Source: a virus
IMG/VR virus record: IMGVR_UViG_3300035662_000119
Coordinates: 1 to 29,966 of that record
DNA: 29,966 nucleotides
Direction: 5' to 3' (one strand)
Part shown: positions 3,177 to 28,878 of the stretch, one piece after another
Numbering within the stretch: the stretch's first letter is position 1
Layout of the letters: the number at the start of each line of letters is the position of its first letter
The notes under the pieces: generated by a model
Seen by the model: the letters and a program-made list of their open reading frames with translations, nothing else
What the model was told of the DNA's origin: nothing
The model's database searches: none
Made by a program: the position numbers and the translations under genes

Positions 3177-4019
3177 GTGGCCCGAAAGCGCAAGGGGCTG
3201 CAGGTCAGGCGAGGGCCTGCAGCCCCACTTACGAAGAGGCGTACAGGAGAGGCGGTCATTGCCGTCCTCTCCTGTACGCATTCTCCGTTTACGCCCCCCA
3301 CGGTCCATCGGTGGCTGCTTGACACCCTGGGATCGCTGGAGGGTGTGACCCATCTCGTGCATCTGGGGGACATCTTTGAGGCATCGGCCGCAAGCGTGCA
3401 CCCCGACGAATCGAAGCACGACCTGCTGGACGAGTACAAGCACGCGGCCAGCTTCTTGGCAAGCCTACGATCTGTCCTTCCTAGGGGGACAGTTTTTCAC
3501 GCGATTATGGGCAACCACGACGACAATCTGCAGGCTGCGGATCCCCGTCGTATTCCGGCTGCGCTCAGGGGGGTGAGCAACTTCTTGCATGTCGCGCCCT
3601 TTGCGGATGAGGCTAAGCACTGGCGATGGACTGAGTATCGGAAGGACCGATCGGGCTGCTTGGAGATTGGCCCCGTGATCTTGACTCACGGATTTGACGC
3701 CGGCCGCTCGAGTGACGAGCTAGAGGCGATTCAGTTCTCGAACTTTTGTGGGGGGCACTCCAATCGCCTCGTGGTGCGTGGACACACTCATCGTCCCGTA
3801 CCACCCACGCAGTGCCGACGCACGGCTGCGATTCCGCTTCCGTGGTGGTACATGAACGTGGGCACGTGTGGCCCACTTCAGCCGACGTGGATGAGACGGA
3901 AGGACACATCTCAGTGGGGGGCTGCATTGGGCCTGATCCGGTGTAACATGCGAGCTGTCCCACCCTTCAACGTGAAGGACTGGGATGCCCAGTTACTGAG
4001 GATGCCCGATGCGTTCTAA
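3177..4019 (+). CDS. Calcineurin-like metallophosphoesterase, altered first motif
   Basis: A 280-residue two-metal phosphoesterase. Motifs in order: residues 32-35 'SCTH', where the usual D-x-H has Cys33 in place of Asp; 'GD' at 64-65; 'GNHD' at 112-115; His171 ('LTHGFD'); and 'GHTH' at 202-205. Such enzymes hydrolyse phosphodiesters or phosphomonoesters; the phage substrate is unknown. GTG 3177 is chosen because GGAGGG lies 9-10 bases upstream and the first beta strand (VIAVLS) needs the early start. The basic leader (MARKRKGLQVRR) is encoded by two strong hairpins. The 3' end overlaps the peptidase gene by 11 bases. The loss of the first Asp could reduce activity or reflect a phage subfamily variant. 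Confidence 0.85.
   Translation: MARKRKGLQVRRGPAAPLTKRRTGEAVIAVLSCTHSPFTPPTVHRWLLDTLGSLEGVTHLVHLGDIFEASAASVHPDESKHDLLDEYKHAASFLASLRSVLPRGTVFHAIMGNHDDNLQAADPRRIPAALRGVSNFLHVAPFADEAKHWRWTEYRKDRSGCLEIGPVILTHGFDAGRSSDELEAIQFSNFCGGHSNRLVVRGHTHRPVPPTQCRRTAAIPLPWWYMNVGTCGPLQPTWMRRKDTSQWGAALGLIRCNMRAVPPFNVKDWDAQLLRMPDAF
3194..3226 (+). promoter_or_regulatory. Strong hairpin in the phosphoesterase leader (1 of 2)
   Basis: A perfect 11-bp inverted repeat (GGGGCTGCAGG 3194-3204 / CCTGCAGCCCC 3216-3226) with an 11-base loop. It lies about 17 bases inside the coding region. There is no T-run after it, so it is not a standard terminator. It could slow translation or transcription after the capsid gene. Confidence 0.65.
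3239..3279 (+). promoter_or_regulatory. Strong hairpin in the phosphoesterase leader (2 of 2)
   Basis: A perfect 14-bp inverted repeat (3239-3252 GCGTACAGGAGAGG / 3266-3279 CCTCTCCTGTACGC). The loop can add CGG/CCG pairs with one bulged T. It is inside the coding region, and its right arm encodes the altered first catalytic motif L-S-C-T. With the hairpins at 3139 and 3194 it forms a tight tandem of RNA structures just downstream of the capsid gene. Confidence 0.7.
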
Positions 4020-8910: not shown

Positions 8911-9603
8911 GTGCCGCTCTACGCCTACAACGGCCAGCTCTTCCAAGTGGGGGGCGAACTCGCAGCCAACCAGAACTGCTGCTGCGAGAACGTGTGCATT
9001 ATTTGCTCCTGTTTGCCAAGCACTGTGTCTGTCGCATACCCGTCTTGGCAGCCGTATGTTTACGACGACTGTTCTGGATGTGGGGGGTCAAACAACGGAA
9101 GAATTACAGTCCCCTCAAACACAGTTACTGCATACCTGTGCTGTGTTGATGACAGCTACGTGGTGTATCGCGCAAATGCAGTTTATTTGGGCACGGTAAG
9201 TGAATGCTGCGGTGGCTCTTGTATTACGCGTGATGCTTGGCTCACTGTTGCTATTGGAGCTATTTGCGACGGATCCCCGCTATCTTTTAGCGGGTGGCAG
9301 TTGTCTTTGAAGGTTGTGCTGTCAAACTACAACACCTCTAGTTGCACCTCATGTGTAACCAGCTTGTCTGCAAGGTCAATTAGTACAACACCTTGCAGCG
9401 GAATTAGTAGTTCCTTGGACATTTCAGATCCCGAGTCTTTCTTTACTTGTTCAAATACCTGTACCCCCAGTGGCTGTGTGTTTTGGCAGCTTGAATACAC
9501 TGCAAGTAGCAATATTTACTCGGTGGATAGTTGCACTCCAACCGGTTCCTTTACTGCAACAATCCCCGGGTTTGAAGACATTGGTACAGTGACCGTCTCG
9601 TGA
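8911..9603 (+). CDS. Cysteine-rich virion-like protein
   Basis: A 230-residue protein from GTG 8911 with about 21 cysteines (9 %), including 'NCCCENVCIICSC', 'LCC', 'ECCGGSC' and 'SCTSC'. The opening 'MPLYAYNGQLFQVGGELAANQNCCC' is a pattern I recall from phage surface proteins. The rest is Ser/Thr-rich beta structure. Many cysteines could bind metal or form disulfides after release. Codon and base use shifts to more A/T than the flanking genes (for example TGT, AAT, AGT), hinting at separate origin. The ribosome site before GTG is weak. Its TGA overlaps the GTG of the next, also Cys-rich, gene. Confidence 0.68.
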   Translation: MPLYAYNGQLFQVGGELAANQNCCCENVCIICSCLPSTVSVAYPSWQPYVYDDCSGCGGSNNGRITVPSNTVTAYLCCVDDSYVVYRANAVYLGTVSECCGGSCITRDAWLTVAIGAICDGSPLSFSGWQLSLKVVLSNYNTSSCTSCVTSLSARSISTTPCSGISSSLDISDPESFFTCSNTCTPSGCVFWQLEYTASSNIYSVDSCTPTGSFTATIPGFEDIGTVTVS

Positions 9604-9944
9604 TTTCCTGCGACCACTGGTCCCCGTGCACGGTCAAGTCAGGTGGCTGCTGCGCTGCTGGTCACTACGGCGGCCGTCCAAGCCTCGGCACCTGCAATCA
9701 GTGTCCCCACCGGGTAGTGGGGGTAGTTCCTCAGGGTGCTGTCCAGAAAGCAGCCCACTTTGTCACGGGGGCGGCCAAGGCTATCAAGGCCGTTACCCTG
9801 CCGGAAACTCCGGAGTCTCAGGCTCGACTGGCAGTGTGCAGGGAGTGTGAGGAGTGGACCGGGCGGACCTGCAAGGTGTGCGGCTGTTTCACCACCTTGA
9901 AGGTACGGATCCCTAAGGAGAAGTGCCCCAAGGGGAAATGGTGA
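9600..9944 (+). CDS. Double zinc-ribbon-like cysteine protein
   Basis: A 114-residue product from GTG 9600 (GTGA overlap). It has 12 cysteines in two groups: an N-terminal unit 'CDHWSPC...GGCC...GTCNQC' (about 4-35) and a C-terminal unit 'VCRECEEWTGRTCKVCGCFTTLKVRIPKEKCPKGKW'. The second group is a phage family pattern I know (C-x2-C ... C-x2-CGC ... K ... CP-x-KW), probably a zinc ribbon. A linker with one helix joins them (about 45-75). No enzyme motif is visible, so a protein- or nucleic-acid-binding role is inferred. An extended -10-like box overlaps its stop. Confidence 0.75.
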   Translation: MISCDHWSPCTVKSGGCCAAGHYGGRPSLGTCNQCPHRVVGVVPQGAVQKAAHFVTGAAKAIKAVTLPETPESQARLAVCRECEEWTGRTCKVCGCFTTLKVRIPKEKCPKGKW

Positions 9945-19385: not shown

Positions 19386-22300
19386 ATGGCAACTCAACAG
19401 CCTCCATTCGATGAAGAGGGGTTGGCCCAGTTTGAGCCAATCCGCATGTACGACGCCCCTGGCGTCATCTTGGATCAAATCCTGTCTGGCCGGGGGTCGG
19501 CGGCTTTGGCCATCCGGACGCTGGCTGACTCTCCTAGTTTGTCCCCCCTCGAGAGGCAGGGGATCTCGGGCCGGGTGAAAGAGGCGGTCGGCCGGAATCC
19601 GGTGACCGATACGATCGTTGATCTGGTGACCAACCCCTTTGTGCTGCTGTTAGCGCTGACCAGCCCAATCACGGCGAAGCAGATCATGCGGAACGGGGGT
19701 CGTCTGATTAGCTCAATTCCGCAGGGTGGGTTTGGTAAGAAGGCGATTGACATCGCACGTTCCTCCAACCTCCTGGGCCTGAGCAACTCGGTCAACAACC
19801 GTGGCATCCTGTCGGTGTTGCAGCGGGCACAGAAGCGGTTTGCTGATCTTGTCAACCAAGAGGCTGACCTTGTGCACACGCACGGGTACAAGATTACTCA
19901 GCATCTTGAGCAGAAATACAAGACGAACATCACCTCGCTTGATCCAATGGACTACGCACCAGGTGCACTCCGGGATGAACTGAAGCTGTTGGGTGCAACG
20001 ATCCGGGCGTACCACGAAGGCCGTGATGTTCCAAACTACATCCGCAAGTCAGCTGCCGGCTTGAGGCCTTCGATGAAGACCGTCATGCGGGACGGTAGCG
20101 AGAAGTGGAACCTGGGCCAAGAAGGCAATATCCACATGGACCTCGAGCAGGTTCTCCGCAATCGACGTGGGGGGATTAGCACGAAGGCGGTGCAGGTCAG
20201 GTTTCCAGATCCCACGGTGGACCTGAAAGGAATGCACGAGTCCTACATGAGGGCTCGTGATATCAAGGCCAGCACCTTCATGTACAAGGGGAAGGAGTAT
20301 CGAGTCCCCCCACAGTTCGATGTTACGGAGACCGTGCGTGTGAAGGGTGTGGGCCCCCGCACCCTGCGGCATGAGATCGCGGACTCCGCGAGTGCGTTCC
20401 AGCTGCCAACGCCAGAGGCCATTCCACCCAGCATTCCCGTAAGGCAGGTGATTGGGCAGGAGGAGAAGCAGAGGCAGTGGCACGCGCAGGGTACCTACAA
20501 GCAGTGGCTTCAGGGGTACGCTGGTGGTGCGGGGTTGGAGTACGCGAACGGCATCCGGGATATGTACCGCAGGCGGTGGTACATGCTGGCCGGCAAGGAG
20601 TCTGCTGCGAATGAGGCGCAGGCTATGGCCGGCAATCGGTTTGTGGTGGATGAGGACAAGGTGCTGAAGCTCTATCAGCACATCTCCAAGCTGAAGGACG
20701 ACACGGCATTTGGTCTGCTGGATCCCGACCTGGTAACCATGGTTCGCAAGGGCCGCGTGAGTGACCGCGAGTTCAAGGGCTATGTGCGCCAGGTCGTGGA
20801 GATGAACAGCACTAATCGCTACGCCCCCCGGAACGACTTCATCGAGATCCGCAATGGGAAGCGCATTGATCCTCAGTCAGAGGAGGCAATGGCTGCTCGG
20901 GTTGCAAGCATGCGGGATCCCAAGAACCGCACGATGGGAAGCGCGATGGCGAAGAAAACGCCCAACGCGCAGCACTATGATCCCGAGGACCTGGAAGTTC
21001 TTGAGGCTCAGTTCGGTGGCAGCCAGGGACTGAAGACCGAGATCAAGGCAAGCCGGGACTACGCCACCGCCGCGAAGGAAGAGCCCACCTTCCTCACGAT
21101 GAACACCGCAAGACAGGCGAGCAGGTATGCCCGTGAGTCTGCGGGCAACTACGCGCTCTACATCGACCAGGTGCCAAAGGACGTGATGGCGATCTTCAAC
21201 GCGGAGGTTCGCCGACTCAACAAGCAGGCTGGCATGCTGGATGCGCGGGGCCGACTGAAGGAGACGGTGGGTACGAAGGAGACCTATCGCGAACCCCTCA
21301 GCATGGGCCAGACTCCCAAGTCGATGTACGACGACATCATGGAGGGACGCAGCCGGGGTGGTGAACCCGTGGGGGGATACAACATCAACGACCTCCTGGA
21401 GGCAGGCATGCGTCCGGGTAGAGAAGCGGCTGAGACCATTCAGTTCATGCGGGAGTTCATGATCCCACGGCTGACTGGACAGCCGGGCGCGACCATGAAG
21501 AACATGCTGTCCTACCGGGCGCTGCAGTCTGCCAAGTCAACGGCAGAGTGGCTATCGAAGTCCCCGATGTTCAACTGGGCCACCGATCCAAACACCCTGT
21601 TTGGTAGGGCAAAGGCAAGCATGGAGTCGTTTGCGGCCGCGCCTGCCTCGCTGGCTTCGGCAAGAGCGATGAGTGGTGGAATTGCAAGCTATCTGTATAA
21701 GACCCACCTCTCGCTCAACATGTTCAGCGTGTTGGGTCAGATGCTTCAGACTCCGTCCTTCCTGCTGCCCACGCTGGGTGCTGATGCGTGGTGGGCTGGG
21801 GTAAAGAAGGCGGGACAGCAACTCAACGCGTATGCGAAGGAACGTGCAACCCTGCCTCCCAACATCGCGCAGGCCGAGCGACGCGCGTTGTTGCAGAAGC
21901 ACATTCCGCTCTCGAACGTCGATGGCCGCGACCTGCTGTCGATCACGGATGACCTGCTTGACTCGATTGACGGGAACATCATCAAGAGCCGGTTGCAGGC
22001 GCAGCGTAGGCCAGGGATGCTGGAGTGGGCGCTGCTTGAAGCACCTATGAAGTTCTTTGAGAAGGCTGAGGTGTTCAATCGAATCGTTACCGGCGAGGCG
22101 ACGCAGTTCGCTCTGCGACGGGCAACGATGAAGCCAGGTGCGGGTGGCATCATGAGCTACCGACGCGGCGTGGTGGGGGGCGCCGTCAACGAGATGGATC
22201 AGATTGAGCAGATGGTTGGCTTCGTGAACTACGGAGCCACTCCGCTCAATACGCCGATGGCGCTGGCTTCTCCGTCCAATCCGCTGTTCGGCATCATCAA

Positions 22301-23249
22301 TCTGGCAAGTGCCCCTATTCGGCAGTTCGTGACGTTCCCCCTGCGCAGCATGCTGTACCCCATGACGGTGTCCCCGATTCTTGGTGGGGGCAAGCGCGAG
22401 TTTGGCTTTGGTCGGTTTGGTGGACCGTCGTGGGAGATCAACGCGACGGTGGGCGACTTCATGCGGATCATGGGTACGGGTGCCGTGATCTATGAGGTCG
22501 GCAAGAACATGCTTGGCTCTGACCTCTCCCAGCAGCTGGGTGGTCAGGCGATTACGGATTACCCGCAGAAGATCCTGAGCGGCAAGGTGGGCGACCTGTT
22601 GCCACCCATCATTGATATTCCCTTGGATGCTGTCACCGGGATTCTGCAGTTTGATGATGAGAAGCTGGGAAACACGGTGGCCCGGTTGGTGCCCTCGGGT
22701 GTGGCGCTTCAGCGTTTGAGCTACATGTTGCCGAAGCTTCCTGACCTTCCGGGTGTGGAGATCCAGAGGGAGTATGCGGACTGGGGCTCCATGCGGGAGG
22801 ATGGCACCGTCCCCATCTATCGCTCCGATGGAACGCTGATGGAGTTCAGAGGGGGGATCGGCACCATCCTCCGTGGCATTGGCGCGGACATGGGCAGGTT
22901 CAAGGACGACCGTGAGGCTGTGGCATTCCTGATCCGCAATCGGGATCGGATGACCCAGATGAAGTCGGAGTACAAGAATGCTGTCCTTGCCAACTCCTTC
23001 TCGAAAGCCAAGTCGATTGAGATGGAATTCAAGAAGGCGTTTGGCATGCCCATGAACGTGCAGCAACAGGAATGGGATCGAGCAATCGAGGCACGTGAGC
23101 AGTCTCTGCTGGCCCGTCAGATCGAACGGCTACCCAACGCGTTCGAGCAACAGTACCGGCAGGTGCTTGGTACTGGTTACTCGTCGCAGCTGTCGCCGTT
23201 CTCTTCCGGGTTGGTCCCCCCATCGACTGGGGGCATCGAGCCGGAGTAG
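19386..23249 (+). CDS. Giant internal virion protein (gp16-size)
   Basis: A 1287-residue, mainly helical protein, close to the size of T7 gp16 (about 1318). Several hydrophobic stretches could enter membranes: about 70-90 ('IVDLVTNPFVLLLALTS'), 770-800 ('YLYKTHLSLNMFSVLGQMLQTPSFLLPTLG'), and about 950-990 ('LFGIINLASAPIRQFVTFPLRSMLYPMTVSPILGGG'). The C-terminus is a charged helix ending 'VPPSTGGIEPE'. I see no lytic transglycosylase or peptidase motif at the N-terminus, unlike T7 gp16. It likely forms part of the DNA ejection channel. It starts 15 bases after a strong terminator and has no clear ribosome site. Its 3' end overlaps a convergent gene by 73 bases. Confidence 0.7.
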   Translation: MATQQPPFDEEGLAQFEPIRMYDAPGVILDQILSGRGSAALAIRTLADSPSLSPLERQGISGRVKEAVGRNPVTDTIVDLVTNPFVLLLALTSPITAKQIMRNGGRLISSIPQGGFGKKAIDIARSSNLLGLSNSVNNRGILSVLQRAQKRFADLVNQEADLVHTHGYKITQHLEQKYKTNITSLDPMDYAPGALRDELKLLGATIRAYHEGRDVPNYIRKSAAGLRPSMKTVMRDGSEKWNLGQEGNIHMDLEQVLRNRRGGISTKAVQVRFPDPTVDLKGMHESYMRARDIKASTFMYKGKEYRVPPQFDVTETVRVKGVGPRTLRHEIADSASAFQLPTPEAIPPSIPVRQVIGQEEKQRQWHAQGTYKQWLQGYAGGAGLEYANGIRDMYRRRWYMLAGKESAANEAQAMAGNRFVVDEDKVLKLYQHISKLKDDTAFGLLDPDLVTMVRKGRVSDREFKGYVRQVVEMNSTNRYAPRNDFIEIRNGKRIDPQSEEAMAARVASMRDPKNRTMGSAMAKKTPNAQHYDPEDLEVLEAQFGGSQGLKTEIKASRDYATAAKEEPTFLTMNTARQASRYARESAGNYALYIDQVPKDVMAIFNAEVRRLNKQAGMLDARGRLKETVGTKETYREPLSMGQTPKSMYDDIMEGRSRGGEPVGGYNINDLLEAGMRPGREAAETIQFMREFMIPRLTGQPGATMKNMLSYRALQSAKSTAEWLSKSPMFNWATDPNTLFGRAKASMESFAAAPASLASARAMSGGIASYLYKTHLSLNMFSVLGQMLQTPSFLLPTLGADAWWAGVKKAGQQLNAYAKERATLPPNIAQAERRALLQKHIPLSNVDGRDLLSITDDLLDSIDGNIIKSRLQAQRRPGMLEWALLEAPMKFFEKAEVFNRIVTGEATQFALRRATMKPGAGGIMSYRRGVVGGAVNEMDQIEQMVGFVNYGATPLNTPMALASPSNPLFGIINLASAPIRQFVTFPLRSMLYPMTVSPILGGGKREFGFGRFGGPSWEINATVGDFMRIMGTGAVIYEVGKNMLGSDLSQQLGGQAITDYPQKILSGKVGDLLPPIIDIPLDAVTGILQFDDEKLGNTVARLVPSGVALQRLSYMLPKLPDLPGVEIQREYADWGSMREDGTVPIYRSDGTLMEFRGGIGTILRGIGADMGRFKDDREAVAFLIRNRDRMTQMKSEYKNAVLANSFSKAKSIEMEFKKAFGMPMNVQQQEWDRAIEAREQSLLARQIERLPNAFEQQYRQVLGTGYSSQLSPFSSGLVPPSTGGIEPE

Positions 23250-23536
23250 TCGGGTGGCGTGAGCAGCATGCGAAGCAAAGCTTCGGCTGGCTGACTCTCG
23301 ATCCACCTGACAAACAACTTGGCTGGTCCGTCTGCTCCTTCACGAACCAGCCACTCTCGGTAGAGAACACCGAGAAATCCGATGAAGACTCCGGTCTCCT
23401 CGATCCGCATGGTGTGCACTGCCTGGAACGCACGGATGCGTTCGGCAAAGCGGGCCACCATCGACTCGCTGAGAACCAGTCGTCTTCGCAAATCTTCCAG
23501 GGTGTTGGCTTCCACCCGTCGTTGTAGCCGTGGCAT
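23177..23536 (-). CDS. Hypothetical 119-residue protein, last in the MoxR-VWA operon
   Basis: Minus strand; ATG at 23536 has a perfect AAGGAG 6 bases upstream, which supports a real gene. The helical N-terminal two-thirds ('LEDLRRRLVLSESMVARFAERIRAFQAVHTMRIEETG', 'FIGFLGVLYREWLV') is followed by a disordered acidic tail (DGGTNPEENGDSCDE). I do not recognise a family. It begins 23 bases after the VWA gene stop and so is probably cotranscribed. Its 3' end runs 73 bases into the end of the convergent giant internal protein gene. Confidence 0.68.
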   Translation of the reverse strand: MPRLQRRVEANTLEDLRRRLVLSESMVARFAERIRAFQAVHTMRIEETGVFIGFLGVLYREWLVREGADGPAKLFVRWIESQPAEALLRMLLTPPDYSGSMPPVDGGTNPEENGDSCDE

Positions 23537-23559
23537 GCTGTGCTCCTTGTCGAGGACGA

Positions 23560-25605
23560 CTAGATGGTAGCCGACTTCAGGATGTCGCAGACGATGGGGA
23601 CCACGCTTGTGGCATCTGGGACATTGAAGCTGTTTGAAGCACCAAAGCCCTCGATCATGGTCACGCGGTGGATGCGAGACCCAATGCCCACCCCCACAAC
23701 CGGATAGGGCGACTGTCGGCTCATCCAGTTGAGAGTCTTGGGTGAATCGTGATACCCCTTCGTATAGGCTTTGTCGCAGTCCTGATTGCTCGCAAGATGT
23801 CCGTGAAGATCAAAGTCAGGGGGGAAGGACACGCCACAGGGCTTGCCATCGGTGACCATGATAATTCCCTTGCTGGCATGCGAGTCTTCCATATCCAGCC
23901 GGCGGATCATGTGGTGCAGAGCCACGGTAGCTGGCGTGCCACCGTGATGCTGAATGTAGTTGAGTTCGTCGGTGGTCTGGAACTCGGCAATGCTGCAGAT
24001 GGTGGTCTGGTTCTTGTCGCGATCCACGTGGTTGCTGACTGCAGAGAAGCAGACGGGGATGAGCTTCACGTTCTTGTGGTTCTTGGAACCCTCAATGATC
24101 GCGTGAAGAAAGCCAAGGGCATTTGGCAACAGGTTGACCATGCTGCCACTCACGTCCATCATGATGCCAAGGACCACACTACCAGCTCCAGCTTCTGGTG
24201 GACGATCAAACACATGAGCGTCCCCCCAGCCTGCGAGCTTGTGCAGGGCGCCCTCATCCAGAACCCCGTCCAACTGACCGTGATCGTTGGCAGGTGGGTG
24301 AGCAACACGCCACACTGCAGAGGCGACCTCCTCCGTAAGTCGGTTATTAGGGGCGTAAAGCCGCAGTTGTTGGGGGGACACAAACTCAGGCTTAGCTGTG
24401 CGGGGTGCGGAGATGTAATCCTGAGCCAGCCCAAAGACTGCTGGGACCATGGTCTGATTGGTGTCCTCATCTTCCACAGACTCTTGGCCGTCGCTTGGCC
24501 GACACTCAATCATGTGGTCCTTGCTGCTGTTGGCTTGAGACTCCTCGACTGGGTTCACGCCAACGACGAGCTTGACTTTGCGGGGAGCCTTGCCGTTTGC
24601 GTTGGGATCGAGGGACAGGATGCCACGAATCTCGGTCATCATCTTGCCAAGCTCGACGATCTGGGTGCTTGGGTCTGCAGCCAGCAACTCGGGCCAGTAC
24701 CGCTTGACCACGCTTGCTGCCATGTCGAACTGTGGAAGCTTGGGCAACTTCACCCGATGGCCACTGGTGTTGGTGTTATAGGCCAGTGCTGTGAAGAACC
24801 GCTCGTACTCGCTGTTGCCAAAGGCCTTGCCATCCAGGAACTTCTGGACTGAGGTCTTGCTATCCAGGATGGTGGACTCGTATGACTCGAACAGTTCTGC
24901 CCAACCCGGCCACTTGTCCAGGATAGCCTGGCGATGTCGGGTGGTGCAGAGCGCGGCCCAAGTCTTGAGGAACATGTCGCAGTGCAGGTGATACTGCGGT
25001 TCCTTGTGGATGTTGAGCGAGACCATCGCCATGTTCTGTGCTTCGTGGTATCCAAAACATCGGTCTCCTCTCGCCGCATCGTTGGAATTGGCGTTGTCCA
25101 CCAGAGCTTGGATGCACCTGTAGTTCAGTTCCAGTAGCGTATTGTTGTTGAACTCAAGCGCGTCCAGTCCGATGGCTGTCACCGCATCCACTGCAGAGGC
25201 AAAGTCGGGGGCTGAAGCCATCGTGGCGTAGGGAATCACGATGGTCTCGGGTGAACCAGGGGTGGTGAGAATCTCGGTCTTTCGAGCCTCAATGAGCCCG
25301 TGGCACAGCTTCATGTCCGGGTTCTTCAGTATCTCCTCCTTCTCCTCGTCGGAGCTGAGGTAGATGTGTCGGGCTTGCTCAATCGCGCTACGGAAGTAGA
25401 ACGGCGCACTGCCAAAGCCCGACTGGTTGTAGGAGCCAGAGAGGCGGAAGGTCACCGGATTCTTGATCCAGAGATCCCATACCTCTGCTGCCTGCTCCAG
25501 AACAAACAGCGCGGAGTCGGGGTCCACACGCTTAGTCTTGGTGTTCTCCTTGTGGAACCCATAGTCAAACGTGTTGTCGAACCAGTCATAGATCTTGTTG
25601 AACAT
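23560..25605 (-). CDS. VWA-domain protein (CobT-like), partner of the AAA+ ATPase
   Basis: A 681-residue protein. The C-terminal von Willebrand A domain (about 475-681) has a complete metal site: D484-V-S486-G-S488, T557 ('HGGTPAT') and D586 ('VTDGKP'). The middle (about 345-400) is acidic and low in structure ('DEDTNQ'), as in CobT. The N-terminal 340 residues are helical and not recognised. In MoxR-VWA and CobS-CobT pairs the AAA+ ring acts on a target recruited by the VWA protein. The ATPase gene lies 21 bases upstream. No CobN-like chelatase subunit is visible, so cobalt insertion is not supported; a protein-remodelling role is more likely. ATG 25605 has GGAG upstream. Confidence 0.82.
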   Translation of the reverse strand: MFNKIYDWFDNTFDYGFHKENTKTKRVDPDSALFVLEQAAEVWDLWIKNPVTFRLSGSYNQSGFGSAPFYFRSAIEQARHIYLSSDEEKEEILKNPDMKLCHGLIEARKTEILTTPGSPETIVIPYATMASAPDFASAVDAVTAIGLDALEFNNNTLLELNYRCIQALVDNANSNDAARGDRCFGYHEAQNMAMVSLNIHKEPQYHLHCDMFLKTWAALCTTRHRQAILDKWPGWAELFESYESTILDSKTSVQKFLDGKAFGNSEYERFFTALAYNTNTSGHRVKLPKLPQFDMAASVVKRYWPELLAADPSTQIVELGKMMTEIRGILSLDPNANGKAPRKVKLVVGVNPVEESQANSSKDHMIECRPSDGQESVEDEDTNQTMVPAVFGLAQDYISAPRTAKPEFVSPQQLRLYAPNNRLTEEVASAVWRVAHPPANDHGQLDGVLDEGALHKLAGWGDAHVFDRPPEAGAGSVVLGIMMDVSGSMVNLLPNALGFLHAIIEGSKNHKNVKLIPVCFSAVSNHVDRDKNQTTICSIAEFQTTDELNYIQHHGGTPATVALHHMIRRLDMEDSHASKGIIMVTDGKPCGVSFPPDFDLHGHLASNQDCDKAYTKGYHDSPKTLNWMSRQSPYPVVGVGIGSRIHRVTMIEGFGASNSFNVPDATSVVPIVCDILKSATI

Positions 25606-25626
25606 GGGGGTAGCTCCGTGGGGGGA

Positions 25627-26559
25627 TCAGAAGGGCAAGGTGGAATTGGAGACCTGAACGCTGCACCCCTCAAGAATGTTGGGGAACTTGCCAATGAGCA
25701 AAGCAGCAAGAGCCGAACGCTCCGCGGGATCCGCACTGGAGTTGAGGATGGTGTACTCCAGAGACTCCTGACCATACCGAGCCAGGTCGTGAGCAGCAGC
25801 CAGCACCCGGCGTGTGCTGAGGGCGCGCACGTTGGAGCTGGACTGTCGGGTCTTGGCCGCGATCTCACACAGCGCCTCCGCCCACTTGGTGTCGAGCGTG
25901 GGCACTCGTCGAGTGAGCAGGGCCAACTCATCCTGCCGGTTGAGGTAGGACATCTCGATGACGCGCGTGAATCGCTCGTCCAACGCTGCGTCCAGCGGGC
26001 CGGCGCCAACGTAGCGGGAGCCAGTGTTGGTAGTAGCGATGAACATGGTGTTGGCACCGACCGTCACGGCACGCTGACGCTCCTCGATCCACGCACGACG
26101 GCGATGGTCGAGCAGGGGGAACAGGCCGTTGAGGACGGAGGAGGATGCGCGGTTCAGCTCGTCGAGGACCACAACGTAGTTGCCGGCCTCGATGGCCCGA
26201 ACGAACTCAGTGTCCTGCCACAGGACGGCGCCGTCCTTGACGGTGCGGAATCCGAACCAGTCGCGGGGCTCGCGGACCACGGCGCAGTCCATGATGAGCA
26301 GGGGTCGGTTGGTTTCCTGGGCGATCCACTGGCCAAGGCTGGTCTTGCCGCAGCCGCTGGGGCCAGTGACTCGCAGGTTCTCCGTCGTTCGGGACTGTGC
26401 GATTCCCCCCACGATCGTCTTGATGCGTGGGCTGAGGGACATGTCAACCGGCTCGGGGGGTTGGGTGGGGGTAGTGAAGAGGTCCACTGGGATCTCCTTG
26501 GGTGTGGGGGGACGAATGGCTTCGGTAGCGGGCTTGAACTGTGCGATGTAAGTAGCCAT
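25627..26559 (-). CDS. MoxR/CobS-like AAA+ ATPase
   Basis: A 310-residue protein. ATG 26559 is chosen over the 26-residue longer frame because GGAG lies 7 bases upstream. Walker A is G66-PSGCGKT-73, Walker B is 'VVVLDE' at 129-134, sensor 1 is N178 in 'IATTNTG', the arginine finger is R196 in 'DERFTRV', and a sensor-2-like 'STRR' is near 248-251. The first 45 residues are a Pro-rich, probably flexible arm. This is the AAA+ half of a MoxR-VWA chaperone; such rings use ATP to remodel or load cofactors into target proteins. The VWA gene follows at 21 bases, and the intergenic gap holds one CGTGGGGGGA copy. Confidence 0.88.
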   Translation of the reverse strand: MATYIAQFKPATEAIRPPTPKEIPVDLFTTPTQPPEPVDMSLSPRIKTIVGGIAQSRTTENLRVTGPSGCGKTSLGQWIAQETNRPLLIMDCAVVREPRDWFGFRTVKDGAVLWQDTEFVRAIEAGNYVVVLDELNRASSSVLNGLFPLLDHRRRAWIEERQRAVTVGANTMFIATTNTGSRYVGAGPLDAALDERFTRVIEMSYLNRQDELALLTRRVPTLDTKWAEALCEIAAKTRQSSSNVRALSTRRVLAAAHDLARYGQESLEYTILNSSADPAERSALAALLIGKFPNILEGCSVQVSNSTLPF

Positions 26560-26582
26560 GGGTAGCACTCCGGGGGTAGGGG

Positions 26583-27062
26583 TTAGAGGCCCACCCAGAA
26601 CTGGTAGCACTGGGGGGCAAGTACGCGGACGGCCCACGGCACACGCCGGGGCAGGAGCAGACGATCAACCAGAGGCTGGCCGATCAGAGCGTCCATCCGG
26701 GATCGGATGGCGGTAGTAAGCTGGAAAGCGAGGTAGCGGGGTATGCCACCCTGCAGGCTGCCTGAGAGGTCTACGTCGCCCAGGGGAAGGAAGTCCCAGG
26801 GAGGAGCCTCCGTAGCCCTCAGCCACCTGACCTGTCGATCTGGGGGCACGGGCGGGCCCTTGGTGGCCCAGCCAAACAGAAGCCAATAGTCGAGGCCTCC
26901 CTCGCAGGGGCGCATCCACAGGCCGAGGCCTACCCTACCTCGGAGCAGACCTCTCCTGGGGGAGACCTCGACTTCTGGCACCTGCTTGTCCCATCCGGAT
27001 GTAGCGATCCATAGCCGGCGGGCCTTGGAGGCAAGGGGCCGGTCAGGCCGGAGGGGCTTCAT
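26583..27062 (-). CDS. Unknown Trp-rich protein heading the MoxR-VWA operon
   Basis: The 159-residue form from ATG 27062 is preferred. A longer frame from ATG 27161 (192 residues) would run through the terminator at 27095-27136 and has no ribosome site. The protein is rich in Trp, Arg, Leu and Pro ('KARRLWIATSGWDKQ', 'GLDYWLLFGWATKG', 'PWDFLPLGDVDLSG'). I do not recognise it. It ends 23 bases before the ATPase start, so it may be a target or adaptor of that ring. The start codon lies in the loop of an 11-bp hairpin, and no ribosome site is obvious, so expression may be controlled at translation. Confidence 0.58.
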   Translation of the reverse strand: MKPLRPDRPLASKARRLWIATSGWDKQVPEVEVSPRRGLLRGRVGLGLWMRPCEGGLDYWLLFGWATKGPPVPPDRQVRWLRATEAPPWDFLPLGDVDLSGSLQGGIPRYLAFQLTTAIRSRMDALIGQPLVDRLLLPRRVPWAVRVLAPQCYQFWVGL

Positions 27063-27091
27063 GTGGGCCCAACCGGATGCGACCGGCCCCT
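27034..27091 (-). promoter_or_regulatory. Hairpin enclosing the operon start codon
   Basis: AGGGGCCGGTC (27034-27044) is the exact reverse complement of GACCGGCCCCT (27081-27091). In the minus-strand RNA the 11-bp stem encloses the ATG at 27062 in a 36-base, GC-rich loop. It begins only 3 bases after the terminator T-run. It could limit translation of the first operon gene or bind a regulator. Confidence 0.5.
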
Positions 27092-27094
27092 GTA

Positions 27095-27136
27095 AAGAAA
27101 ATGCCCCGGAGGAACCGGGCGGGTTACCTCCGGGGC
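27095..27136 (-). terminator. Rho-independent terminator (minus strand)
   Basis: Read on the minus strand: GCCCCGGAGG (27136-27127), an inner AACC/GGTT pairing with one bulge, and CCTCCGGGGC (27112-27103), followed by ATTTTCTTTA. The 10-bp stem plus T-run is a clear terminator. It ends the SSB-like transcript, so the MoxR-VWA operon needs its own start or read-through. Confidence 0.85.
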
Positions 27137-27195
27137 TGTCGTGGGGGGACGTCTGGTCCATGGTAGTGGCGGGTGTCCCCGTGTCAACCCGTCAC

Positions 27196-27714
27196 TCAGA
27201 GCAGCTGGCCAGTGAGGAACTCGGTGAAGTACAGCGTCTTGCCATCGCGGCTCGCGTCGTACTTGGCCCGAAGCTTCACGCCAGTCGGAACACCATTGCC
27301 CAGCTTCTTGCTCACAGCCTCCATGTCGGCGGCGAGGTTGTTGGTGCTGGTACCGAGGATGGTGCGCAGGTGGCCCTTCAGGCGCTCGAGGTCGATGCGC
27401 ATGCGGGTCTTGGCACCGTCGTCCGTCAACTGAGCCGGATTGCTCGGCAGGTTGAAGGCCTTGCCCTTGAACGACCGAGGATCGCTGGGGCTACCCGGAT
27501 CGTCAATCATCTGATAGGTGAAGTAGATCAGATTGGACGGGAACACCTGGCCGTCCTTCTGCTTGAACTCGCCGTTGTCGGCCACGATGCCCGTCACCAT
27601 GACGGCATGATCGCCAGCCTCGGGGCGCCAGCCAGCGGCCGAGCCCTCGGTGTTGGCCTCAGCCGACTGGTAGATCTCACTGAACGCATTGAACATGCTT
27701 GACTTGATCGACAC
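27196..27714 (-). CDS. Single-stranded DNA-binding-like protein
   Basis: GTG 27714 is chosen because AAGGAG lies 8 bases upstream; the 57 extra codons in the longer frame are Pro/Trp-rich and unlikely to be coding. The 172-residue product has the pattern 'GWRPEAGDHAVMVTGIVADNGEFKQKDGQVFPSNLIYFTYQMIDDP' then 'FKGKAFNLPSNP' and 'RLKGHLRTILG', which I recall from phage ssDNA-binding/DUF669-type proteins, beta-rich with a GDH start. No acidic DDDIPF tail. It follows the Sak4-like gene, a pairing expected because Sak4 annealases work with SSB. A terminator lies 60 bases after the stop. Confidence 0.62.
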   Translation of the reverse strand: MSIKSSMFNAFSEIYQSAEANTEGSAAGWRPEAGDHAVMVTGIVADNGEFKQKDGQVFPSNLIYFTYQMIDDPGSPSDPRSFKGKAFNLPSNPAQLTDDGAKTRMRIDLERLKGHLRTILGTSTNNLAADMEAVSKKLGNGVPTGVKLRAKYDASRDGKTLYFTEFLTGQLL

Positions 27715-27978
27715 GATGCAAACTCCTTGAAATGGGGGGTAAGAAGAAACGAGACACGGAACGAAGAACTGGAAGTTTAAGTTCCACTTAGTGGAAGGCG
27801 GAGGTGGGACACCGTCGAGGGCCCACCCCCACCCTTCCGGGGGATCGTCGTCAGGGAGCCAAGGGAGATTGGGTACTCCCATCACCCGTCATCGGGCATG
27901 TTAGCGAAGGCGGCTGTGCATCCATCCTGCGCTTGTTACGACCATTGGCTAGTCCCTGACGTGCACAGTAAAACACGG
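27715..27978 (-). promoter_or_regulatory. Structured 264-base intergenic leader of the SSB-like gene
   Basis: This gap holds no convincing gene. It has several short inverted repeats: TTCCAC-TTA-GTGGAA (27782-27796), CCCG-TCAT-CGGG (27885-27896), and CTGTGCA (27914-27920) facing TGCACAG (27962-27968). C-rich and G-rich blocks near 27823-27842 can also pair. It could be a 5' leader, an operator, or a small RNA. No strong promoter box was found. Confidence 0.35.
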
Positions 27979-28878
27979 TCACGAGGTGGCGTCGTTGAAC
28001 GCCTTCTCAAAGTCCTGCCATGCGGTTGGCGAGTTGGTGATGTCGATGTCGGGCAGCGGCTTGAGGGTGCGAGTGCGCACAAGTCGCATGTACCGGGGAT
28101 CCGCGAACGCTAGGATCCTGCGGTTCTCTCGCTTGACGACCACCTTCTGCTGAGTGATCTGCTTGCCACCAATCGTCACGGTCACCGGTTCGGTGGTAGT
28201 GCTCTCCGTGGTCTCACACCTCATGGGCGCGATGATCTCCACGCTCTTGGACAGACGCTCCTTCAGGCCGGGAGGCAGGCTGAGATAGTGATCCTCCACC
28301 TTGCTGTGCTCCGAGATCTCAACCCACTCACGGCTGAGGTGCGCGATCATCCACACACCATATCCATGCTGCCTGAGTCGGTGAGCAATGTCAATGACCG
28401 AGTCATACAACTTCTCCCAAGCCGCTGGTCCATGGGCCTGCTCAAAGGTTTCCTTGCCCATGAGCCGAGCGACGTGGCCCTTCAGCATGCGGATCGCCGG
28501 CGCCAGTGTGTCGATCACCACCATCGAGGGGCGATCCATTCCCTTGTCCGCCAGCTCACACAGCTGCTTGATCTTTGCCTCTACCAGATCCCACGTCAGC
28601 GTGATCGGCTTGCCACCCACATCAATGGGCCGGCCATCCTTGCCGATGCCGGGCCACACCGTTGCATTGGCGTGGGGGGACACCGTGGCCGTGAGATCCA
28701 GATTCAGGATGAACGCGTCAGCGCATCCCTGAAACAGATAGGACTTGCCACTGTTCTGCTCACCGACCACCATGCCCCACATGTTCTTGAGGCTGTAGTG
28801 CGAAGGCTGCGTGAACCCCAAGCCGGGGAATCCCTTGGAGGGAGTGGCGCCGGTGGCCATTGTCTGGAACGTGCTCAT
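27979..28878 (-). CDS. RecA-fold ATPase, Sak4-like annealase
   Basis: A 299-residue protein with Walker A G39-EQNSGKS-46, Walker B 'MVVID' at 119-123, and a polar sensor strand 'WMIAHLSREW' (176-185), the layout of the AAA_24/Sak4 single-strand annealing family. These proteins anneal or exchange single-stranded DNA during phage recombination and replication. The flanking genes support this: an upstream nuclease end and a downstream SSB-like protein. The C-terminal 80 residues carry a basic strand region ('TVTIGGKQITQQKVVVKRENRR') that may bind DNA. Its ATG overlaps the preceding stop (ATGA). Confidence 0.76.
   Translation of the reverse strand: MSTFQTMATGATPSKGFPGLGFTQPSHYSLKNMWGMVVGEQNSGKSYLFQGCADAFILNLDLTATVSPHANATVWPGIGKDGRPIDVGGKPITLTWDLVEAKIKQLCELADKGMDRPSMVVIDTLAPAIRMLKGHVARLMGKETFEQAHGPAAWEKLYDSVIDIAHRLRQHGYGVWMIAHLSREWVEISEHSKVEDHYLSLPPGLKERLSKSVEIIAPMRCETTESTTTEPVTVTIGGKQITQQKVVVKRENRRILAFADPRYMRLVRTRTLKPLPDIDITNSPTAWQDFEKAFNDATS

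Follow-up and report, generated by a model that had tools for sequence, protein, structure and literature searches.

A probable two-gene MoxR-VWA motor among the replication genes of a family of uncultured phages

Four adjacent genes on one strand of a viral genome, two of them encoding an AAA+ ATPase and a VWA protein, raise the questions of which genes form a working unit and of what this unit does. The window (the whole stretch of DNA analyzed, 29,966 bases) corresponds to a complete IMG/VR record from a virus of bacteria. The initial annotation described an operon that might serve protein remodelling or host takeover, in which two proteins of no recognized family ("orphans") could be the target or the adaptor of the ATPase. 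The genes concerned and their upstream neighbours, in their order along the minus strand, are as follows.

27979..28878, minus strand: Sak4-like recombinase/annealing ATPase, context (Pfam AAA_24, E 2e-10; phrog_124, E 1e-7)
27196..27885, minus strand: SSB-like gene upstream of the Trp-rich gene, context (dN/dS 0.06)
26583..27161, minus strand: Trp-rich orphan, start uncertain (27161 or 3′ of a leader hairpin, e.g. 27062)
25627..26559, minus strand: MoxR-type AAA+ ATPase, 310 aa, with helix-2 insert, NorQ/CbbQ/CobS-like
23560..25605, minus strand: VWA protein, 681 aa, with an N-terminal helical region (no family given) and a C-terminal VWA
23842..24165, minus strand: VWA/MIDAS core, residues 481-588 (DVSGS, GGTP, TDG)
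23177..23536, minus strand: 119-aa orphan with an acidic tail, predicted from sequence to be mostly helical

The four ORFs from the Trp-rich orphan to the 119-aa orphan are separated by 21-23 nt, and a GGAG Shine-Dalgarno-like site lies upstream of the start codon in each of the last three. We compared them with contig 3300035670_000297 (51.7 kb), whose proteins are 72-92% identical. The dN/dS was ~0.15 for the 119-aa gene, ~0.15 for the VWA gene, ~0.09 for the MoxR gene and ~0.23 for the Trp-rich gene, and third codon positions held most of the changes in all four ORFs. Therefore, all four ORFs are genes, all are under purifying selection, and the four-gene operon of the initial annotation stands. 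Its order was retained in three phages, with the identity of the VWA protein falling to 35%. The 119-aa ORF shares 73 nt with the end of a convergent plus-strand gene of 1287 aa, which adjoins the end of the cassette in the window. The SSB-like label rests on the gene's position after Sak4 and on the character of its sequence; its product had no match in Pfam or PHROG.

The Trp-rich protein is encoded by a real gene, but the start first proposed for it, the ATG at 27062 (159 aa), is not conserved: it is CTC or CTA in relatives. The open frame reaches back to 27161 (192 aa). Changes concentrated at third positions ruled out a non-coding region for its main part. Neither orphan matched Pfam, PHROGs or NCBIfam. 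The structure model of the Trp-rich orphan had a mean pLDDT of 48.7, with residues 1-64 the worst.

The MoxR gene starts at a conserved ATG; a GTG at 26637 merely lengthens the ORF into the upstream gene. Its product matched Pfam AAA_5 (E 5e-21) and phrog_249 (CobS-like, "porphyrin biosynthesis"; E 1e-36). It carries Walker A (GPSGCGKTS), Walker B (VVLDELNRA), sensor 1 (TTN), the arginine finger (DERF) and sensor 2 (STRR), and these catalytic motifs were kept in an alignment of 11 homologues. The helix-2 insert, FRTVKDGAVLWQ, was taken from the alignment, not from a structure. In sequence searches of the PDB, CbbQ, NorQ (the best bacterial matches) and single midasin modules scored about equally; for example, a single midasin AAA module scored 53 bits and CbbQ 52 bits. 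We rejected midasin as a special relative of the ATPase, since its very low E-value is a sum over several AAA repeats. Among the matches listed, at least 14 cellular loci carry homologues, which are 23-35% identical to the ATPase along parts of its length. In a MoxR tree, the clade of the window formed one group (support 0.98), joined to a sister clade (1.00). Judged by its sequence, the ATPase is an intact MoxR AAA+ protein of the NorQ/CbbQ/CobS group, in agreement with the initial annotation.

The match of the VWA protein to Pfam VWA_2 was weak, and no sequence match to it was detected in 50,697 phage records. The metal site is complete, as first proposed: a MIDAS of the form DxSxS-T-D (D484-S486-S488, T557 and D586) is invariant in 13 homologues. 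No HExxH peptidase motif is present in the protein. The predicted structure had a mean pLDDT of 63 and a pTM of 0.45, with a pLDDT of about 80 in the VWA part. In a Foldseek search, this model of modest confidence matched NorD in NorQD complexes (E 1.9e-5). NorD was also the best fold match (Z 17.1 over 220 residues, within query residues 373-681 of the same modest-confidence model), exceeding VWA-only and Rea1-MIDAS matches. The nearest viral models, in BFVD, were CobT-like/VWA proteins of Gordonia, haloarchaeal and Thermus phages. The C-terminal third is thus predicted to fold most like NorD. We left the N-terminal half uninterpreted because of the modest confidence of the model.

These matches bear on a second reading, in which the pair would supply CobS and CobT functions to a CobN of the host and raise cobalamin synthesis. 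This role has been proposed for viral cobST (PMC8651126), and the phrog_249 match and the CobT-like annotation of the BFVD neighbours speak for it and agree with the kinship to phage CobS/CobT-like genes noted initially. Equivalog models gave a different picture: neither protein hit the NCBIfam models of CobS (TIGR01650) or CobT at E 0.1, whereas a cyanophage CobS does score on TIGR01650, below its cut-off. The N-terminal region of the VWA protein is unlike the CobT domains in Pfam, and its VWA part matched NorD rather than a CobT model. A search for CobN (PF02514) had no hit in 12 related viral records, which may be fragments, and a control search found it in 5 of 14 genomes; as first noted, no chelatase subunit is in sight. 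A CobN in the host is possible. Even so, the cobalamin reading is not supported here, and we consider it very unlikely. The conserved MIDAS and the NorD-like fold argue for protein remodelling over the default "cobalamin" annotation, and remodelling, one of the functions first suggested, is the best reading.

How constant is the pair itself? Scans with VWA patterns returned close relatives only, while MoxR and Sak4 scans gave a wider set. Scanning viral contigs with a MoxR profile yielded 34 loci, 31 of them with DNA downstream of MoxR. In all 31, a large partner ORF began no more than 26 nt after the end of MoxR (gap 0-26 nt). A MIDAS-type VWA was seen in 25 of these partners, and the other six end at a contig edge; none of the 31 partner ORFs, six of them cut by the contig, contained HExxH. 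The MoxR proteins of the sister clade were 52-55% identical over the full alignment, and those of a group of larger phages were 37-40% identical and paired with a VWA protein of ~1130 aa. Across these three groups, the MoxR and VWA genes stay together as a stable two-gene unit. Viral MoxR-VWA ("CobST") pairs have been described before; the window pair adds a member and extends their range to a new family of uncultured phages.

In the window and sister clades, the pair sits among replication genes (UDG, DNA polymerase, nuclease, Sak4). This location bears on a possible role as a virion-assembly chaperone, which we hold to be a tentative and somewhat doubtful alternative. A chaperone role has been proposed for the MoxR-vWA pair of jumbo phages (PMC7824862) and, with interaction data, for p618-p892 of Acidianus two-tailed virus (PMC4124505), and the convergent 1287-aa gene at the cassette end could be seen in the same light. 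However, the pair lies outside the virion block in both clades, and no peptidase domain is fused to the VWA protein.

The two orphans behaved differently from the pair. Whole contigs of the sister clade carry both of them, yet neither adjoins MoxR-VWA: they are adjacent to each other, the 119-aa homologue directly following the Trp gene, and come immediately behind Sak4 and the SSB-like gene. The cassette of that clade lies between an ORF of 174-192 aa and the UDG gene. In one contig (L025) this site is empty: only 3 nt separate the homologous ORF from the UDG gene that follows it. A scan with a Sak4 profile found 15 loci with the order Sak4, Trp gene, 119-aa gene and no MoxR-VWA between them; 10 of these 15 contigs had MoxR-VWA elsewhere. 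More distant phages kept Sak4, and several had a Trp homologue (best E 4e-9 to 2e-11, others 1e-6); the 119-aa gene was not found in them. Eight records of this distant clade (20-54 kb, possibly incomplete) had no match to MoxR or VWA.

Both orphans accompany MoxR-VWA in the window clade only. The arrangements in the sister clade and in the further clade rule them out as obligate partners, so the proposal that they are its target or adaptor failed. The observation named at the outset as refuting that proposal, absence of the orphans from related operons, was made in part: they are absent beside the pair in the sister clade, while the four-gene order is kept in three phages. Since the orphans are separate from the cassette in the sister clade, we regard them as separate genes that flank MoxR-VWA in the window clade. 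The most economical account puts the cassette between the Trp and 119-aa genes in this clade alone; the direction of its move is inferred, helped by the distant-clade Trp locus that lacks the cassette. Might the two proteins have been recruited as adaptor or substrate once they flanked the cassette, giving a complex of four components in the window clade? Three phages share the order, the close spacing and the purifying selection, which would fit, as would the detection of the 119-aa gene only in two clades, both with MoxR-VWA; this orphan may have a functional link with the pair. Phage replication regions, however, often retain their gene order through descent alone. With both sets of genes present but apart in the sister clade, and with a Trp homologue persisting where MoxR-VWA was not detectable, we think a four-component complex improbable.

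The region before the Trp gene contains two further elements.

27160..27187, minus strand: sigma-70-like site, TTGACA-16-TACCAT, immediately 5′ of the leader hairpins (a consensus match only, at 10 of 12 positions)
27103..27151, minus strand: two-hairpin RNA element (CGU-C6-ACG, then a stem of 13-14 bp) between the SSB-like and Trp genes, in 16 sequences

In relatives, TTG and TAnnAT of the promoter-like site were kept at the same spacing. The first part of the RNA element is the invariant CGUCCCCCCACGA. Over the 16 sequences, 99.3% of cells were paired; four pairs had compensatory changes, with no broken pair among those four, and one stem pair was seen as C-G, G-C, A-U and U-A. Rfam gave no matches to the element. 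A model of the element matched nowhere but here, apart from weak hits at the corresponding position in the distant clade. Substitutions in the stem change the amino acids encoded, and one sequence (L096) has a stop codon, possibly a sequencing error, that breaks the Trp frame within the element. For these reasons a leader or terminator is favoured over coding sequence here. The tail 3′ of the stem was T-rich in most sequences and poor in one (L077); the element may be a simple terminator, though this is not certain. It is conceivable, and we put it forward with some doubt, that the hairpin pair is a new cis-acting RNA family, more than a terminator, with control over the Trp gene and also, in the window clade, over the cassette that follows.

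Taken together, the core of the locus is probably a two-gene viral MoxR-VWA motor, NorQD-like and driven by ATP, and the orphans are separate genes of the replication region. We favour this reading because of the adjacency in 31 loci, the conserved catalytic and MIDAS residues, the NorD-like fold, and the grouping of MoxR with NorQ, CbbQ and midasin by sequence. In NorQD, cryo-EM placed a finger of the VWA domain in the MoxR pore, where ATP turnover twists the NorD linker and opens the target (PMC13036017); the MIDAS is required for the target and dispensable for binding of the ATPase (PMC9976466). By analogy, MoxR subunits would form an ATPase ring in which the VWA protein could dock as NorD does in NorQ, a target protein would be held by the metal site together with the divergent N-terminal region, and would be pulled or twisted into an assembled or active state as ATP is turned over. 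The target would most likely be a phage or host protein needed in replication or assembly. In the window, the Trp-rich and 119-aa genes would share a transcript with the cassette while lying outside the conserved motor.

The motor might also act on a host complex, as a takeover or counter-defence remodeller. The genes do lie in an early-type replication region. The PADLOC matches were short, generic AAA hits; we rejected a defence or anti-defence label on that ground and regard such a role as unlikely. For the Thermus phage pair and for phage Mic1, the literature searched gave no usable information on timing. For the two-gene motor, these results remove the two candidate partners that gene order alone had suggested. 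The motor is a cassette of two genes found at different places of the same replication region; as its position varies, the target should be sought beyond the neighbouring genes.

Among known systems, cobaltochelatase CobS-CobT(-CobN) shares the AAA+ plus VWA-MIDAS architecture and the PHROG 249 match, and differs in that neither window protein matches its equivalog models and no CobN was found in the 12 related records. Midasin/Rea1 resembles the window pair in AAA modules that singly score like CbbQ and in a MIDAS domain found among the VWA fold matches; it is one giant fused eukaryotic protein with six AAA modules. The p618-p892 pair of Acidianus two-tailed virus is likewise a viral MoxR plus VWA pair, and ORF892 appeared in the fold search as a weak structural match (E 7e-5), but it belongs to another kind of virus and is a virion component with a part in tail development. 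NorQ-NorD and CbbQ-CbbO of bacteria share adjacent genes for a helix-2-insert MoxR and a partner with a C-terminal VWA. The window VWA protein is only ~11-16% identical to these partners, with an N-terminal region that is unrelated or unassigned, and the window system lacks a NOR or Rubisco target. In jumbo phages, an N-terminal HExxH metallopeptidase is fused to the VWA, unlike in the window protein. Hardycor1 is a viral precedent (PMC7911831), and the MoxR of S-CREM1 has been assigned to the CGN subfamily (PMC9964418). There is also a likeness to the viral cobST/MoxR-vWA pairs of haloarchaeal tailed viruses, cyanophages, Thermus phages P23-45 and P74-26, and Gordonia phages. The window VWA protein differs from these in having its own N-terminal region and no HExxH, which many of them carry; the window pair agrees with them in the adjacent, same-strand genes for an AAA+ ATPase and a large VWA-MIDAS protein, in MoxR similarity, in the VWA fold and in its location, as those pairs too are often in replication regions.

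The stretch between the SSB-like gene and the Trp-rich orphan gene carries a conserved two-hairpin RNA element, with copies in relatives of the phage.

27103-27151 (-), two-hairpin RNA element of the window
L025:11576-11627, L074:3203-3252 and L094:5493-5542, copies in related uncultured phages

Its stem showed compensatory changes, and CGUCCCCCCACGA was invariant. The element, which had no match in Rfam, may be a terminator, an attenuator or a leader.

The MoxR-VWA/orphan locus has a convergent neighbour, which was kept in this position in all three clades. No match to the encoded protein was found in Pfam or PHROG.

19386-23249 (+), 1287-aa protein

Three further genes were noted in the window.

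3177-4019 (+), 280-aa protein, calcineurin-type metallophosphoesterase-like
8911-9603 (+), 230-aa Cys-rich protein, no family assigned
9600-9944 (+), 114-aa Cys-rich protein, no family assigned

The first lies directly after the putative capsid gene and looks like a calcineurin-type metallophosphoesterase from the motifs HLGD, GNHDD and GHTHRP, read by eye. The two Cys-rich protein genes adjoin each other within the structural gene block.

In L025, the phage in which the sister clade's site for MoxR-VWA is empty, the DNA polymerase ORF (L025:2745-5117) contains some 80 extra residues, rich in Ser and Thr, around positions 414-495. This segment is absent from the sister-clade polymerases and may reflect either an insertion or an error in the reading frame.

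A related MoxR and VWA partner were found in large uncultured phages (L039-L055, contigs of up to 168 kb; for example, L049:7392-12281). Their VWA partner lacks the GGTP motif and has DQSGSM as its MIDAS; it is about 1130 aa long, and their MoxR about 500 aa.
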